DNA of 64,000 nt from Epsilonproteobacteria bacterium tcs-49 (GTDB lineage Bacteria; Campylobacterota; Campylobacteria; Campylobacterales; Sulfurovaceae), in assembly GCA_002049495.1 (NCBI GenBank), contig LLYS01000005.1, positions 1 to 64,000 on the forward strand, in the 5' to 3' direction. Made by a program: the position numbers and the translations under genes. The stretch's first letter is position 1. Every line of letters begins with the position of its first letter. The notes beneath the pieces were generated by a model, which was not told the origin of the DNA, made no database searches, and saw only the letters and a program-made list of their open reading frames with translations. Positions 45,752 through 55,140 of the stretch are shown here, piece after piece.

Positions 45752-46632
45752 TAGCAGTGATAGGTGCCGGAAAGTGGGGGCAAGCCCTGGCCTTTGCCTT
45801 AGGCAAGAGTAACGAAGTGGTGATCACGTCACGGACCAAGCGCGATCTTGAAAACTTCGTATCCCTGGAAGAAGCGATGCAAGCACAGACGCTTGTCGTC
45901 GCCATCCCCGCCCAGTCGGTACGCTCCTGGCTGCGCAAAAACCCCATCGGCAGGGAGCAAAACGTTTTAGTCGCCGCAAAGGGGATCGAGATTGAAAATC
46001 AAGCCTTCTTAAATGAAATTTACGCGGAGTACGTGGATGAAAACCGCCTGGCTTTTATCTCCGGTCCCTCCTTTGCCAAGGAGGTCAGCCGGGAACTCCC
46101 CACCGCCATCGTGATCAATTCGCGTAACCGGGCCCTGGCTTCGAAACTCGCGTCCTTTTTTCCCAACTTTATCAAAACCTACGTCAGCGAAGACGTCACG
46201 GGTGCGGAAGTGGCGGGGGCGTATAAAAACGTCATCGCCATCGCCGGCGGGATCAGCGACGGTTTGCAACTGGGCAATAACGCCCGTGCGGCACTGACGT
46301 CGCGGGGGCTGGTGGAGATGACGCGCTTTGGCAAAGTCTTCGGGGCCCAAGAGGATACCTTTCTGGGTCTAAGCGGCGCGGGAGATCTTTTTTTGACCGC
46401 CAGCAGCGAACTTTCCAGAAATTACCGGGTGGGGTACTATCTGGCACAGGGGCAGAAGCTCGATCGGATCCTGAAAGATCTGGGAGAGGTTGCGGAAGGG
46501 GTATACACCACCGAAGCGATCTATGCCATTTCGCGAAAACGCGACATCTACGTCCCCATCGCAACGGAAGTGTATAAGATTTTGCAGGGCAAAGATCCGA
46601 AACAGAGTCTGCAGGATATCCTGGCTAATTAA
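45748..46632 (+). CDS. gpsA: Glycerol-3-phosphate dehydrogenase [NAD(P)+]
   Basis: A 294-residue enzyme. It has the NAD motif AVIGAGKWGQALAFAL, the substrate site VAAKGIEIENQAFLNE, ISGPSFAKEVSRELPTAI, and the active-site lysine in GAEVAGAYKNVIAIAGGISDG. It reduces dihydroxyacetone phosphate to glycerol-3-phosphate for phospholipid synthesis. It overlaps the soluble RCK gene by four bases (ATGA) and the convergent receptor gene by eight. Confidence 0.96.
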   Translation: MIAVIGAGKWGQALAFALGKSNEVVITSRTKRDLENFVSLEEAMQAQTLVVAIPAQSVRSWLRKNPIGREQNVLVAAKGIEIENQAFLNEIYAEYVDENRLAFISGPSFAKEVSRELPTAIVINSRNRALASKLASFFPNFIKTYVSEDVTGAEVAGAYKNVIAIAGGISDGLQLGNNARAALTSRGLVEMTRFGKVFGAQEDTFLGLSGAGDLFLTASSELSRNYRVGYYLAQGQKLDRILKDLGEVAEGVYTTEAIYAISRKRDIYVPIATEVYKILQGKDPKQSLQDILAN

Positions 46633-49261
46633 ACTCCCCTTTTAACTCCTGCGTTTTGCGTGTCTGCAGGGTAAACTCCAAGCCCGTCTGCTGCGCAATC
46701 TTTGCAATAGCGGGTTCGAGCTGGGCGGGTTTCGTATCTTCGCAGAAAAGGTAAAAATTGCCGGGTTTGACGTAAAAGTTCATCATGCTGCATACGCCGT
46801 AGATGATATGCGCCGCTTCTTCCAAACGTTTTTCCACCTCCTGAACGCCCTCTTGCATCTCCAGTTCCATAATCCGGTCCGCCTGGAGCTGGTATACCGT
46901 TTCATGCCTTTGCAAAAACTCTTTTTGGTGCAGCATCAGCTTGAGGTAGTTTTCATTGTAAAAACCCGTGACGGGGTTTTTATAAAAGTACGCCAACCGC
47001 TCCCGCTCAATCTCATTTTTCGGCGACTGGCTGATGGAGGTGGAGACCTCCACATCCTTCAGCGCTTCCACGGCCGCATCCACCACCCGGGGGTGAAACT
47101 GCGCGCCCCGAAGCGCCTGCAACTCCTCCAGCGCTTCTTCGGTGCTTTTGTTGCGCTTGTATATGCGGGTACTGGTCATGGCGTCAAAGGCGTCCGCGAC
47201 ACTCATGATCGCCGGAAGCAGCGGAATCTCATCGCCTTTTAAACCGTCGGGGTACCCGGTCCCGTCGTAACGCTCATGATGGTGGAGCATAATGTCGGCA
47301 AGGTCGCGGTAGAGCTTGATCCCCTTGAGCATTTCATAGCCTACGACGACGTGTTCTTTAATCATCTGGTACTCCAGATCGTTGAGTTTTCCCGGTTTGA
47401 GTAAAACCGCATCGGGGGTGGATATCTTGCCGATATCGTGCAAAATAGCGGCTTTTGTCAACTTTTCGATCTGCTCTTTGGCGATCCCCATCTTTTTGGC
47501 GATCATTTCGCTGTACTGCGCTACCCGCGCGGTATGCCCCGCCGTATAAGTGTCGCGCTGTTCGATCATTTTGACAAAGGAGATAATCGTCTCTTCGTAA
47601 TTTTCGATCTGCTCATTTTTCAGCCGTTCGTGCTCCTGGGCGTGCAGCGCCGCCTCCACCGCAAATCCCAGGTCGCCGCTGAGCTCTTCAAGCATCTTTA
47701 TCTCTTCGAGTTCAAACCCCTTTTTCGCCGAACTCAAAATCCCGATCACGCCGCTGTTTTTATTCTCATCCACATCCGAACGCAGCGCAAACAGTGCGAC
47801 CGACCGCACCCCCGCATCGGTGCAGAGCTTTCGAAAGCCTTCATCCACGTCATAGGTTTGCACATCGTTAATGATTTCAAAGCTCTTTTTTTCCAGGAAG
47901 TGTCGGGCCAACCCTTCGCCGCTTTCAAAATCATGATGCAGATACTCCCCGAGCTCCGTGTGCTGCTGCAGTTTTGAAGCGCTGTACCAGCGGTTTTGCT
48001 TTTCACACTCACGCAGATAAACGAAGCTGAGCTTGTAGCGGTTGGGCTTGATCAAGCGCTGGCAACTTTTTTGCAGTAGCTCGGGAACCCTCTTGTAGGT
48101 GATCAGATAGCGGTTGATATCGGAAACGGTGGACATTACCGAGCGCAGGTAGCGCTCCTTGCCCAGCAGCTGCTCGACGCTGATCGTTCTTTGATGAATA
48201 CGCTTTTCCAATTCGCTGTTGGTCAAGATCAGCTCCTCATGGGAACGCTTGAGCGAAAGGTGCAGGCGCAGTACGTAGAAAGTAAGCGCAATGATCGCGA
48301 TCAATGCCACGACCCCTACCGTAATCGCTAGCCAATAGCGCTGCAGCAGTTTCCCGATATAGGTTTGTAAACTGTCTTTGTAAATCCCTACCCCCAAGGC
48401 TTGAAGAGTTTCGTGAACGAGATTGTAATTTGCCGGAATCGTCCACCCCGCAGCTTTGGCGGCTTTTGCCGCTTCATCGCTTGCTTGCATCGACATCAGC
48501 GCCAGTGCCACCTTTTTGGCTATCTTTGTATCGGTATGGCGCAGCTTGGCGATTGGCCACTCGGGGTAAAGCCGCGTACTGCGCAAAAAGGGGAAATTTT
48601 TATCGTTGTAACGGTTAAGCACGAAAAGTTTGTTGATCTCTATCTTCCCCTCCGCAGCCATACGCTCAAGGGTATCGGTACGGACCGTTCCCGCATCCAC
48701 CTTCTTATCCAGTACCGCATATACGACGTTGTCGTGGGTGCCCAAAAAGGAGAGTTTGGCAAAATCGCCGTAGGGATCGATGCCGTTTTTTTGAAAGAGG
48801 CGGTACGCCATATGCCAACCGCCGAAAGACTCCTCATCCACGGCGGCAAAACGTTTGTTTTTCAAATCCCGAAGATGGTTGATATCCGCACTATCGGATC
48901 GGGTAAAAACGACCCCTCCAAAACGGGTGGTCTGCACGTGTTCGAGACTTTGGTTGATCAGCGTAGCGATGCGATTGATCTGGTATTTGGTTTCTAGCTG
49001 TACGTAAAACGCGGAGTTGGTGATGATAAAATCCACCTCCTCCCGCCGTACGGCCAGGTCGATCGCTTCAAAGGAGAGGGGAACGATCGTAAAATTGGCA
49101 CCGGGAATCTTTTCGTTAAGGTAGGTTGCCGTAGGCTGCCATTTTTTCAGTGCCAGTACATCCCCGCGTTTGGCAAGGACACCGATCTTGATCTTGACCG
49201 CACTTCCTTCCAGGCCATACAGAAAAAGCGGCAGCAGCAAAAGCAGTAAAAACCTTTTCAC
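46625..49261 (-). CDS. PhnD-GAF-HD-GYP membrane receptor, probable c-di-GMP phosphodiesterase
   Basis: An 878-residue protein. A signal peptide (about 1-17) leads into a periplasmic PhnD/TAXI-like solute-binding domain (about 22-290; KIKIGVLAKRGDVLALKKW and VDFIITNSAFYVQLE). A membrane span lies at about 310-332, then a coiled coil, a GAF-type domain (about 375-520), and an HD-GYP domain from about 545. Its key blocks are intact: HTARVAQYSEMIAKK, AILHDIGKISTPDAV, HHHERYDGTGYPDGLKGDEI and SVADAFDAMTS. About 160 further C-terminal residues are of unknown fold. It should bind a small solute outside the membrane and cut c-di-GMP inside. Ligand unknown. Confidence 0.88.
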   Translation of the reverse strand: MKRFLLLLLLPLFLYGLEGSAVKIKIGVLAKRGDVLALKKWQPTATYLNEKIPGANFTIVPLSFEAIDLAVRREEVDFIITNSAFYVQLETKYQINRIATLINQSLEHVQTTRFGGVVFTRSDSADINHLRDLKNKRFAAVDEESFGGWHMAYRLFQKNGIDPYGDFAKLSFLGTHDNVVYAVLDKKVDAGTVRTDTLERMAAEGKIEINKLFVLNRYNDKNFPFLRSTRLYPEWPIAKLRHTDTKIAKKVALALMSMQASDEAAKAAKAAGWTIPANYNLVHETLQALGVGIYKDSLQTYIGKLLQRYWLAITVGVVALIAIIALTFYVLRLHLSLKRSHEELILTNSELEKRIHQRTISVEQLLGKERYLRSVMSTVSDINRYLITYKRVPELLQKSCQRLIKPNRYKLSFVYLRECEKQNRWYSASKLQQHTELGEYLHHDFESGEGLARHFLEKKSFEIINDVQTYDVDEGFRKLCTDAGVRSVALFALRSDVDENKNSGVIGILSSAKKGFELEEIKMLEELSGDLGFAVEAALHAQEHERLKNEQIENYEETIISFVKMIEQRDTYTAGHTARVAQYSEMIAKKMGIAKEQIEKLTKAAILHDIGKISTPDAVLLKPGKLNDLEYQMIKEHVVVGYEMLKGIKLYRDLADIMLHHHERYDGTGYPDGLKGDEIPLLPAIMSVADAFDAMTSTRIYKRNKSTEEALEELQALRGAQFHPRVVDAAVEALKDVEVSTSISQSPKNEIERERLAYFYKNPVTGFYNENYLKLMLHQKEFLQRHETVYQLQADRIMELEMQEGVQEVEKRLEEAAHIIYGVCSMMNFYVKPGNFYLFCEDTKPAQLEPAIAKIAQQTGLEFTLQTRKTQELKGEFN

Positions 49262-50085: not shown

Positions 50086-50136
50086 GGCCATCTCTAAAAA
50101 CCCTGTGCGGTCCGCACAGGGCTTTTAGAGATGGCC
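50086..50136 (-). terminator. Long perfect-arm hairpin with embedded terminator
   Basis: Two 25-base arms (50086-50110 and 50112-50136) pair around a single base with one imperfect pair, which is a G-U wobble in minus-strand RNA. The inner ten pairs (CCCTGTGCGG and complement) are GC-rich and, on the minus strand, are followed by TTTTT, so they form an intrinsic terminator for the ovoA-ovoB-dgc transcript. The outer arms (GGCCATCTCT) extend beyond what a terminator needs. Confidence 0.75.
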
Positions 50137-50168: not shown

Positions 50169-51284
50169 TTATGCGACCACCACCCGGTTGCGTCCGCTGT
50201 GTTTCGCTCTATAAAGTGCGTCGTCCGCCGTTTCGTACAGCTTCTCCAGCGTATTTTGATTAAAAGTTTTTGTCACCACCAGTCCGATGGAAGCGGTGAC
50301 GTATTCGCTGGCTTTGTTGCCGCCGTGTTCCAGCCCCAACCCCTCGATACGACTGCGCAGCCGCTGTATATGCTCAACGATCTTGGCTTCGCTGTCGGAA
50401 CTTAAAATCGCGCCGAACTCCTCTCCGCCCAAACGAAAAGCGAAATCCTCGTGGCGGCGCAGGTGCGAACGCATCAGCTGCGCCAGTTCGATCAACACCT
50501 CATCGCCCTTTTGATGGCCGTAACTGTCGTTGTACTGCTTGAAAAAATCCACATCCAGAATAAAAAACCCGAAGTAGAGGTTGTGCCGCCTCGCCCGGTA
50601 AAATTCGCGTTTGAGTATCTGGTTGAAAAAGCGCTTGTTATACAGCGACGTCATCCCGTCGGTCACGGAAAGGCGTTCAAGCTCCTCCATATGCTGGCGC
50701 TCTCTTTCCATCAGGGTTGTAACCTTTTTATACACCGCTTCCTGGGAGAGTTCGATCACGTAGGTTACATAGATCAAGATGGAAAGGGCCACGGCGAAGC
50801 GGAAAAAGGAGAGTTCGCTCCAATCTCCCCCCTGCCAAATCCCGATCCCTTTGTAAGAAAGAAACAAAAAAATCCCGTAAAAAACCGCCACGAGCGGGAT
50901 TCCGGTGCGGTGTCCCATGGTAAAAACGGCAAAGATGGGGAAAAATATGGTCCAGATCAACCCGAAATCCTTGTTGTCGTTGACGGAGATAAAAAAGAAG
51001 GTAAACAAAAACAGCGTAATGACGCTGAGCGTCACGGCACTGTCGTAATTGTCAAAGTAGCGCAGGGAGATGAAAGCGAAGATAAAACTCACAAGGGTAA
51101 ACCCTTCGATCAGCAAAAAGATACGGTTATGGGTAATAAAATAATCATACACCGTAAAAACGGCGATAACACTCGTAACCACCAGTAAAAGCGCGTTTAG
51201 CAGCACCTTTCTTTGCAGCTGGGGGATATCGCTTTTGTAACTGACCTCTTCGGTTAAAAAGGTTGCGAGCATCTTGACCATCAC
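50169..51284 (-). CDS. Membrane-bound diguanylate cyclase (GGDEF)
   Basis: A 371-residue protein. About six membrane spans lie in residues 25-190 with no recognised input domain, then a short helix and a GGDEF domain (about 205-371). The active site reads RLGGEEFGAI, and an RxxD inhibitory site (RHED) lies five residues before it, so product inhibition is likely intact. LDVDFFKQYNDSYGHQKGDEVL is also complete. It makes c-di-GMP. It overlaps the end of the OvoB-like gene by four bases, so it is translationally coupled to ovothiol genes, an arrangement not expected from function alone. Confidence 0.93.
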   Translation of the reverse strand: MMVKMLATFLTEEVSYKSDIPQLQRKVLLNALLLVVTSVIAVFTVYDYFITHNRIFLLIEGFTLVSFIFAFISLRYFDNYDSAVTLSVITLFLFTFFFISVNDNKDFGLIWTIFFPIFAVFTMGHRTGIPLVAVFYGIFLFLSYKGIGIWQGGDWSELSFFRFAVALSILIYVTYVIELSQEAVYKKVTTLMERERQHMEELERLSVTDGMTSLYNKRFFNQILKREFYRARRHNLYFGFFILDVDFFKQYNDSYGHQKGDEVLIELAQLMRSHLRRHEDFAFRLGGEEFGAILSSDSEAKIVEHIQRLRSRIEGLGLEHGGNKASEYVTASIGLVVTKTFNQNTLEKLYETADDALYRAKHSGRNRVVVA

Positions 51285-52438
51285 ATCTCCTTTAAGGGCT
51301 CCATGCGCCTTATCGCCTCTTGCAGTTTCACTCTGGGCGCTGCGAAATTGAGCCGCATAAAGCCGCTGCCCGCTTCGCCGAAATCGATCCCGCTGTTGAG
51401 CCCAAGCCCGAGAGTGTGGACGAAATACGCTTTAAGCGCGCTATCCTCAAGCCCCGTTTTGCGGCAATCAAGCCAGAGCAAAAAGGTACCTTCGGGCAGA
51501 AAATACTCTATCTTTTCAAACTCCCGCAGCGCGTTGTCCAGATACTCCAGGTTGCCTTTGAGATGCGTCAGCAGCTCCTCCACGTAGCCTTCACCCCCTT
51601 GCAGTGCCGCCACCGTCGCGGCGATACTGAAGGGGTTAGCGACGTGAAATCCCAGCTGCGTCATCCGATGGCTTAAGCGGCGCCGGAGCGTATCGCTTTG
51701 GATGATGGCGTACGCGCTGGAAAGCCCCGTCAGACTAAAGGTTTTGGACGGGCCGCTGAGCGTAACCGCTGTTTCCGGCGCATACTTGGCGATGGGGATA
51801 TGCGTACCCCTATAGACCAGATCTGCGTGGATCTCGTCACTGATGATCAGCACCCCGTGCTTTTGGCAGATTTGTGCCATCTTTTGCACCTCCCCTTCGC
51901 TCCAGACCCGTCCCGTGGGGTTGTGGGGCGAACAGAGGATAAACAGCTTCGCCGCTTTGGCTTTTTGCTCAAAATCGTCAAAATCGATCTCGTACCCCTC
52001 ACTCCCCGCTACAAGGCGGTTTTCCAGCAGGGTGCGTTTATTGTTGCGAACGCTTGAGAGAAAGGGAGGATAGATGGGTGTTTGGATAATCACCCCCTCG
52101 CCCTCTGCGCTAAAGGTTTCTATGGCCATGTTGATCGCTACGACGACGGAGGGGACGGTGAGGATCTCCTCTTTTTTTATCTCCCACGTAAAACGCCGTG
52201 CCATCCACGCACGGATCGCCCCGTAATACTCCCCGGGATAGATCGTATAGCCGTATACCGGGTGGGCGGCGCGCTTTTGCAGCGCACTTTGTACCGCTTC
52301 GGGCGCGGCGAAATCCATATCAGCCACCCACAAAGGCAGCACGTCGTCGCTGCCGAATTTCTGCTTTCTGCCGTCGTATTTGACGCAGGAGCTTCCTTCG
52401 CGCTTTATGTCACGCTCAAAGTTCATCGCTTCTTCCAA
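51281..52438 (-). CDS. ovoB: PLP-dependent C-S lyase, probable OvoB (MalY/PatB family)
   Basis: A 385-residue fold-type I aminotransferase-like protein. VLPLWVADMDFAAPEAVQSA and TVPSVVVAINMAIETF are MalY/PatB signatures; LCSPHNPTGRVW binds the cofactor, and the Schiff-base lysine lies in LSGPSKTFSLTGLSSAYAI. This family includes cystathionine beta-lyases and OvoB, which cleaves 5-histidylcysteine sulfoxide to 5-thiohistidine. The start overlaps ovoA by 16 bases, which makes OvoB the best reading. Without that context it would be called a generic PatB cystathionine beta-lyase. Confidence 0.82.
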   Translation of the reverse strand: MEEAMNFERDIKREGSSCVKYDGRKQKFGSDDVLPLWVADMDFAAPEAVQSALQKRAAHPVYGYTIYPGEYYGAIRAWMARRFTWEIKKEEILTVPSVVVAINMAIETFSAEGEGVIIQTPIYPPFLSSVRNNKRTLLENRLVAGSEGYEIDFDDFEQKAKAAKLFILCSPHNPTGRVWSEGEVQKMAQICQKHGVLIISDEIHADLVYRGTHIPIAKYAPETAVTLSGPSKTFSLTGLSSAYAIIQSDTLRRRLSHRMTQLGFHVANPFSIAATVAALQGGEGYVEELLTHLKGNLEYLDNALREFEKIEYFLPEGTFLLWLDCRKTGLEDSALKAYFVHTLGLGLNSGIDFGEAGSGFMRLNFAAPRVKLQEAIRRMEPLKEM

Positions 52439-54525
52439 ACGGTGACGTGGCTGATACTGTGCTGGAACTTACGATCTGTCTCTTTGATCACAAACTCTAC
52501 GTCGCGGCTTTCAAGGAGTTCAAACTCCCCCTCAAGCAGCTCTTTTAACCCATCAAACGTGGTGTAGTTTTCCCCGTCTTTTTTAAAGCCGCCCAGCCAC
52601 TTGGACTTTGGCGTATGCCCCTCGTCCCAGCTATAGGGCGAGGCGAGCAATACGATCCCGCCTTCGTTGAGGCGGCCGGAGAGATCGCGCAGGAACTTTT
52701 GCGGATCGTATAACCGATCGATCAGATTGGTGGCAAAGATCAGATCGAAGTTGCTAAAGACCGGCTTGAGATTGCACGCATCCCCTTGCCAAAACTCCAC
52801 CTTCGCCGCACTTTCCTCCAACCCGAACTGCTCGAGTTTTTTGGTTTTGTACTCCACCAGCTCCCCCTCCGTGGTTTCGGTGTAACTGATCTCTTTGTTT
52901 TTTTTCATCTGCGTCGCCAGCTGGATAAAGCGCGCGGTATAGTCGATACCGATGACGTGGTCAAACTCCCTTGCCAACTCAAAACTGCCCCGCCCGATGG
53001 CGCAGCCTATATCCAGCGCGCGCTTTTTGGGCAGATCGGCGCAGTGTTGCAGCGCGATCCGCGCGCAGTGCTTTTTGAAATTTTCCACGCCGTAGTACTC
53101 CTCCCCCCAGCTCATCTGCGCATACTGCGACACCAACGAATCGGTTTCATAGACGTTGGCGTCCACCTTCTGCTCATAATCGCTGATAACGTAGCGGAAA
53201 CCCGCGTGCTGGAAAAAGTGGCGCCGGAAAGCGTAGCGTGAACTCTTCAACGTTTCATTGCCCGTAGAGATCCACGATCCGCCTTTGAAAAGGTTGTGCT
53301 CGTTATCATAGGTCGGAGTGGTAAAATCATCATACAGGGGGTGGACTTTGAACCCGTCAAAGGGGTAGATGGGGGTTTGGGTCCACTGCCATACGTTGCC
53401 GAAAACGTCATAAAACTCCCCGTGGGCGAAGCGATCCACCGGCGTAGAGGAGGCGTAGTGTTCCAGGTTGCTGTTTGCGGGCGCCTTTTCGCCCCACCGG
53501 GGTTCGTCGGGGAAGTTGACGTACTCATAAAGCCGGTACCACTCATCCTCTGTAGGCAGGGTGATCTTTTGTCCGGTTCTTTTCCCCAGCCAGTTGCAGT
53601 ACGCCCTGGCTTCGTGGTAATTCACCTCCGCGGGCCAGTTAAGCGGCAGTTCGATCTCGCCGGTCAGGGTACGCAGTTTGTAACCGTCGCCGCTTTTGAC
53701 CCAGAAGGTAGGGTGCTGGGGTTTGATATATTCGCGCCACTTACGCCCCTCCTCTTCCCACCAGCGATCATCGCCGTAGCCGCCCGCGTCCACAAACTCC
53801 AAAAATTCGCCGTTGCTTACCAGATATTTGGACGCTTGAAAATCGGGGATTTGGGCTTTATGGTGGCCGTATTCATTGTCCCAGCCGTAAAAATCCGCGT
53901 CAGAGTCTTTGCCGATCTCCACGGTGCCCCCGGGGACGGGAAGCAGTTCGTTTGCGGGCGCTTCTGCGCTGTCGGGACAGACAGGAAAGGCGTCGTGGGG
54001 TTTGACAAATTCCAACGGCAGCTGGCGCATCAGTACCGAGGAGGTTTCTAAATGGATATTTTCATGCTCGATCCCCATCAAAATAGCCCAAAAGGGCGAA
54101 TCCCAATCGATAGGCAGCGACAGGGGCATGGTGCTGATAAGCTCATCCACCCTTTGGCGCACCGCGTCGCGGTAGCGCCGCGTGCGCTCAACGCTCGGCC
54201 AATCGTAGTTGCTCTCATCCAGATCATCCCAGCTCATCTCGTCCACGCCTACGGCAAAGATCGATTCCAGTTCGGGATCGATGCGCTGCTTGAGCCGCTT
54301 GGCAAGCACCAGTTTATTGATATAAAACGCCGCCGTGTGCCCGTAGTAAAAGATCAACGGGTGGCGCAGGTAATCGGGCCGTTCATAGTAGGCTTGCTCG
54401 TTTGCCATGATTTCAAACAGCGCTTCGTAACTGTCGTAGGTTTTATGGAAATACTCGCGGATCTCTTCGCGTTTTTGCTCCGCATCGTTTCCGTGCAGGG
54501 AGATATTTCGTCGGATATGCAGCAT
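52423..54525 (-). CDS. ovoA: 5-histidylcysteine sulfoxide synthase / methyltransferase OvoA
   Basis: A 700-residue three-domain protein. The DinB-like domain (1 to about 170) carries the iron ligands: histidine 63 (YYGHTAAF) and histidines 154 and 158 (HENIHLE). An FGE-sulfatase domain (about 190-445) has FDVFGNVWQWTQTP and FKGGSWISTGNE. A class I methyltransferase (from about 470) has ALDIGCAIGRGSFELA near residue 503. This fusion is diagnostic of OvoA, which joins cysteine to histidine C5 with oxygen and later N-methylates the imidazole to yield ovothiol A. The single-domain EgtB of ergothioneine synthesis lacks the methyltransferase. It leads the operon. Confidence 0.93.
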   Translation of the reverse strand: MLHIRRNISLHGNDAEQKREEIREYFHKTYDSYEALFEIMANEQAYYERPDYLRHPLIFYYGHTAAFYINKLVLAKRLKQRIDPELESIFAVGVDEMSWDDLDESNYDWPSVERTRRYRDAVRQRVDELISTMPLSLPIDWDSPFWAILMGIEHENIHLETSSVLMRQLPLEFVKPHDAFPVCPDSAEAPANELLPVPGGTVEIGKDSDADFYGWDNEYGHHKAQIPDFQASKYLVSNGEFLEFVDAGGYGDDRWWEEEGRKWREYIKPQHPTFWVKSGDGYKLRTLTGEIELPLNWPAEVNYHEARAYCNWLGKRTGQKITLPTEDEWYRLYEYVNFPDEPRWGEKAPANSNLEHYASSTPVDRFAHGEFYDVFGNVWQWTQTPIYPFDGFKVHPLYDDFTTPTYDNEHNLFKGGSWISTGNETLKSSRYAFRRHFFQHAGFRYVISDYEQKVDANVYETDSLVSQYAQMSWGEEYYGVENFKKHCARIALQHCADLPKKRALDIGCAIGRGSFELAREFDHVIGIDYTARFIQLATQMKKNKEISYTETTEGELVEYKTKKLEQFGLEESAAKVEFWQGDACNLKPVFSNFDLIFATNLIDRLYDPQKFLRDLSGRLNEGGIVLLASPYSWDEGHTPKSKWLGGFKKDGENYTTFDGLKELLEGEFELLESRDVEFVIKETDRKFQHSISHVTVWKKR

Positions 54526-54687: not shown

Positions 54688-55140
54688 ATGGGGAAAACTA
54701 TTATAAACAGTATCACAAACGAAAAGATCGTCAAACCCGACCCGGTAGATGACGAAGTGCTTTTTGACGGCGGGGTTATGATCACCGAAACCGATACAAA
54801 TGGCATCATCACCTACGCCAATAAAAAGTTCCGCAAAATCACGGGTTATGACAAGGAGGAGCTCATCGGCTCGCCCCACAGCATCAACCGCCACCCCGAC
54901 ATGCCCAAAGAAGCGTTCAAGGGGATGTGGCAAACGATCAAAGAGGGAGAGATGTGGGAAGGACATGTGAAAAACATGTGTAAAGACGGCCGCTACTACT
55001 GGGTCGTCGTGTGGGTCAAACCCCGCTACAACGGCGACGGCGAACTGATCGGCTATATCGCCGGCAGAAAGGTTCCCGACCGTACCCGAATCCCCCAGTT
55101 TCAAGAGCAATACGACCAGATGCGGGCCAAAGAGGTTTAA
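54688..55140 (+). CDS. PAS domain sensor protein, CetB/Aer N-terminus-like
   Basis: A 150-residue cytoplasmic protein made mostly of one PAS domain. GGVMITETDTNGIITYANKK, FRKITGYDKEELIGSPHSIN and RHPDMPKEAFKGMWQTIKEG match the FAD-binding PAS of Aer and of CetB. In Campylobacter, CetB works with the separate receptor CetA in energy taxis. No receptor gene adjoins it here. It lies 162 bases from the divergent ovoA. The end has no signalling domain, so a partner protein is needed. Confidence 0.85.
   Translation: MGKTIINSITNEKIVKPDPVDDEVLFDGGVMITETDTNGIITYANKKFRKITGYDKEELIGSPHSINRHPDMPKEAFKGMWQTIKEGEMWEGHVKNMCKDGRYYWVVVWVKPRYNGDGELIGYIAGRKVPDRTRIPQFQEQYDQMRAKEV

Follow-up and report, generated by a model that had tools for sequence, protein, structure and literature searches.

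An ovothiol A gene pair in a Campylobacterota genome is followed by a diguanylate cyclase gene that is probably an incidental neighbour

The ovothiol pathway, in which OvoA, OvoB and the methyltransferase of OvoA act in succession, is established (PMC12631010). OvoA and OvoB are reported to be widespread in Proteobacteria, with about 2% of the species coming from hydrothermal vents, and a strictly anaerobic Sulfurimonas has been cited in connection with both proteins (PMC9103826). OvoA was thus already known in the phylum considered here. In Proteiniphilum saccharofermentans, the ovoA operon includes the non-conserved neighbours LemA, DUF2207 and transcarboxylase, and the cluster carries an acetyltransferase gene that recurs with ovoA (over 50 genomes) and whose product proved active (PMC12631010). 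Our literature search found no paper joining ovothiol with a diguanylate cyclase.

We analysed a window of 64,000 nucleotides from Epsilonproteobacteria bacterium tcs-49 (Campylobacterota; contig LLYS01000005.1, positions 1 to 64,000). Three genes lie head to tail on its minus strand, with overlapping ends. The first, ovoA (positions 52423-54525, 700 aa), encodes a predicted 5-histidylcysteine sulfoxide synthase with a C-terminal 5-thiohistidine N-methyltransferase. The second, ovoB (positions 51281-52426 from its ATG, 381 aa), encodes a predicted PatB-type PLP C-S beta-lyase. The third (positions 50169-51281 from its ATG, 370 aa) encodes a predicted membrane diguanylate cyclase with a MASE6-like N-terminus and a GGDEF domain. 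We favour, with a probability of about 0.86, the reading that this locus is a standard ovothiol A gene pair with an incidental MASE6-GGDEF neighbour, and that the cyclase has no specific role in ovothiol metabolism.

An initial annotation of this DNA described three overlapping genes, and we found the open reading frames at these coordinates and on this strand, with overlap lengths that depend on the choice of start codon. A longer form of ovoB starts at a TTG (position 52438) and overlaps ovoA by 16 bases; the ATG at 52426 is more likely and gives a 4-base overlap, with the ovoA stop and the ovoB start sharing the sequence ATGA (positions 52423-52426, minus strand). A longer form of the cyclase gene likewise starts at a GTG (position 51284), overlapping ovoB by 4 bases, and here too the ATG (position 51281, 1-base overlap) is the more likely start. 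The corresponding junction (positions 51279-51293, minus strand) reads TGATG and has an AAAGGAG sequence five bases upstream. Short overlaps are common in the window (19 of 43 same-strand neighbouring pairs, an overestimate from a crude set of open reading frames that uses the longest starts) so that the overlaps seen here speak only weakly for a special relationship.

A terminator-like hairpin with a perfect 24-bp stem and a T-run (positions 50086-50136) lies 3' of the cyclase gene. Its predicted folding energy is -49.5 kcal/mol, compared with a mean of -16.9 for shuffled sequences (z = -10.8). The hairpin is present in a single copy in the window genome, which rules out a dispersed repeat, and it probably acts as a terminator in both directions at the end of the three-gene unit. 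The overlapping ends and this unique hairpin make a transcript spanning all three genes plausible. On the other side of the locus, a gene for a single-PAS protein (positions 54688-55140, plus strand) is divergent from ovoA, and relatives of this protein are encoded directly after ovoA in two other genomes (L161 and L173). As a candidate for a conserved ovoA partner the PAS gene is uninformative, because the window genome contains 31 matches to the PAS protein.

The window OvoA scores above the cut-offs of the models for both of its halves (TIGR04344, ovoA_Nterm, 704 bits, cut-off 400; TIGR04345, ovoA_Cterm, 333 bits, cut-off 170). It aligns over its full length (1030 bits) to 8khq, the closest solved structure, which is of the same two-domain kind. 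The iron-ligand motif HX3HXE is kept (HENIHLE, residue 154), and an alignment with 203 relatives revealed no deviation at any of the 93 columns with a conservation of 98% or more. Judged by both equivalog models and by these motifs, the protein looks like a working bifunctional sulfoxide synthase and N-methyltransferase. The initial annotation considered an O2-using OvoA to be notable in a microaerophile. The enzyme is in fact common in the order, where matches occur in 176 of 399 genomes and exceed the cut-off in 175, and ovoA is present in 81 of the 175 genomes of the family.

The third gene product contains a GGDEF domain (Pfam accession PF00990, 160 bits). Its N-terminus scores 25.8 bits against MASE6 (Pfam accession PF20966), just below the cut-off of 27.4; MASE6 is matched at an E-value of 0.001 or better in 18 of 25 cyclase homologues, the window cyclase among the 18. 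The active-site motif is GGEEF, and an I-site motif (RHED, matching RxxD) lies five residues before it. Residues predicted to bind metal and substrate (D243, D245, N251, D252, G285, G286, E288 and F289) are invariant in the 25 homologues. With a full GGDEF domain, the protein looks like a working diguanylate cyclase. Its sequence gave us no sign of a redox sensor. About 900 bases beyond the cyclase gene, on the same strand, lies a gene (positions 46625-49261, minus strand) whose product combines a phosphonate-type periplasmic binding domain, a GAF domain and an HD-GYP-like domain (HDIG ... GYPDG) and is likely a c-di-GMP phosphodiesterase.

We collected ovoA loci with their surrounding DNA from genomes of the family, from genomes of the order and from named genomes, and obtained 215 distinct loci. 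At 103 of these, the gene immediately 3' of ovoA has the same orientation and encodes an OvoB-type lyase. Sequence beyond ovoB is available at 97 loci, namely the window and 96 relatives, all of the latter from other genera, as the genus itself is represented by the window genome. The gene after ovoB encodes a D-Ala-D-Ala carboxypeptidase (Pfam accession PF02113) at 43 of the 97 loci and a PNPOx-like protein at nine, and 15 loci have an opposite-strand gene in this position. The remaining genes are mostly one-offs or form small groups (rubrerythrin, FTR-rhodanese, redoxin, OmpA, Sel1 and others). Redox-related genes follow ovoB in three relatives, where they encode a rubrerythrin (L122:7475-8137), an FTR-rhodanese fusion (L243:3800-4537) and a redoxin (L249:6638-7189).

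A GGDEF gene directly after ovoB is seen in the window and in 0 of the 96 relatives with readable sequence, and we rejected a conserved third gene of this kind. Enrichment of GGDEF genes at any position around ovoA was also rejected, as their density within 1.5-3.5 kb of ovoA (7-10 per Mb) is no higher than that farther away (8-11 per Mb). Other ovoA loci with a GGDEF gene nearby (L271, directly upstream and on the same strand; L257; and L062, L247 and L268, on the opposite strand) occur at the background frequency, and the L271 architecture is clearly different. The initial annotation proposed that c-di-GMP output is tied to ovothiol or oxidative stress, and suggested that this idea would fail if relatives did not keep the GGDEF gene next to ovoA. 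Our survey lends the proposal no support, with the trio absent from all these relatives and no GGDEF excess around ovoA.

The cyclase has a separate distribution. Using its sensor half (the N-terminus) as a query, we identified homologues in 13 other genomes of the family and in 20 genomes of other families in the order sample. In the 24 genomes that have both ovoA and a MASE6-GGDEF homologue (24-35% identity to the window N-terminus), the two always lie on separate contigs or are separated by at least 617 kb. Flanks of about 1.5 kb around the scanned homologues contain no OvoA- or OvoB-like gene. The window genome contains 62 GGDEF matches, which makes a chance GGDEF neighbour unremarkable: with about 2200 genes (an estimated number), a GGDEF gene would be expected in one of two flanking positions with a probability of about 5%.

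These counts bear on the possibility that coupling is specific to the genus: joint production of the cyclase and the ovothiol enzymes would let c-di-GMP, and with it attachment or motility, respond to the oxidative or oxygen exposure by which the operon is induced. Overlap at both junctions, the terminator-like hairpin right after the cyclase gene and a cyclase whose catalytic and inhibitory motifs are intact would all fit this proposal. It is nonetheless unlikely given the 96 relatives without a GGDEF gene after ovoB, the lack of GGDEF enrichment near ovoA, the placement of cyclase homologues elsewhere in the genome in 24 ovoA genomes and a cyclase sequence that gives no evidence of a redox sensor. 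That a MASE6-GGDEF cyclase was recruited into the ovothiol operon in this one genus, with ovothiol-inducing conditions also raising c-di-GMP, is very unlikely.

The product of the second gene scores 473 bits against the PatB C-S lyase model (TIGR04350, cut-off 340) and is the only protein of the window genome over the PatB-family cut-off. Like the two other proteins, the lyase looks like a working enzyme. The PLP lysine K228 is kept, but the protein departs from its family at four near-invariant positions, among them N231S. This substitution (positions 51734-51736, ovoB residue 231) is three residues past the PLP lysine, at a site where asparagine is 100% conserved in other ovoA-adjacent lyases.

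In a tree of 139 lyases (a quick tree with several long branches), the window lyase falls inside a clade of 93 rows (SH-aLRT 94) that consists mostly of ovoA-adjacent lyases, with Bacillus subtilis PatB and Escherichia coli MalY outside. Some members of the clade come from genomes where we detected no ovoA, and membership alone is therefore no proof of OvoB activity. The tree supports assignment of the window lyase to the ovoA-linked kind and not to plain MalY/PatB proteins. Family models and conserved residues thus bear out the initial identification of ovoA and of an OvoB-like lyase gene, and the tree does not show the grouping with plain cystathionine beta-lyases that was named as an argument against the latter. 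That the enzyme is instead a plain cystathionine beta-lyase of the MalY/PatB type, leaving the pathway incomplete here, is highly improbable: PatB and the window lyase share the TIGR04350 subfamily, the literature attributes a broad specificity to OvoB (PMC12631010), related lyases occur without ovoA and four near-invariant sites differ, but the gene directly follows ovoA here and at 102 other loci, its product groups apart from PatB and MalY, and the genome has no other lyase over the cut-off.

Two families of the order (f6 and f4) contain the nearest relatives of the window OvoA as well as those of the window OvoB, and members of a single family are spread over several parts of the OvoA tree. 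This pattern would fit movement of ovoA and ovoB together. Judged by gene order, ovoA-ovoB is a real and widespread two-gene cassette in Campylobacterota, with neighbours that differ by lineage. In a large Sulfurovum-like group, the pair lies between secD/secF-like genes plus a gene of 112 aa on one side and carboxypeptidase, aminotransferase and murC-like genes on the other; the secD/secF and murC names are our own reading of the sequences. We rejected an extended ovothiol operon in these relatives, as the flanks (secD/secF-like, S13 carboxypeptidase/aminotransferase and murC-like) look like housekeeping genes and not like parts of the pathway. Three genomes of the family (L114, L115 and L116) have ovoA without an adjacent ovoB and encode a PatB-type lyase on another contig.

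A standard gene pair with an incidental neighbour would operate as follows, with the pathway steps in this organism predicted from homology and conserved residues. With O2 and an iron centre, OvoA would couple histidine to cysteine to form a sulfoxide; OvoB would then cleave off what remains of the cysteine, yielding 5-thiohistidine, and the methyltransferase domain of OvoA would complete ovothiol A. The comparison of loci indicates that the two genes have been inherited and moved as a cassette whose neighbours change between genomes. In the window, the pair is directly upstream of the cyclase gene, and the overlapping ends and terminator-like hairpin make co-transcription probable. Given the lack of conservation, the membrane sensor domain of the cyclase is most likely what controls it. 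The locus illustrates a limit to reading function from a single operon: where a genome contains 62 GGDEF matches and gene overlaps are frequent, any pair of genes can come to have a cyclase behind it.

Among described systems, the window pair most resembles that of the Erwinia tasmaniensis type (OvoA structure 8khq), with which it shares a full-length two-domain OvoA and a PatB-type lyase encoded by an adjacent, co-oriented gene. Nothing of substance differs, apart from the four near-invariant-site substitutions of the window lyase. As in Proteiniphilum saccharofermentans, a single ovoA operon carries extra genes that are not kept in relatives; unlike the acetyltransferase of that species, the window cyclase is not recurrent with ovoA. 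The cyclase itself matches other MASE6-GGDEF diguanylate cyclases in domain order and conserved catalytic residues, and differs from every homologue examined in its position behind ovoB.
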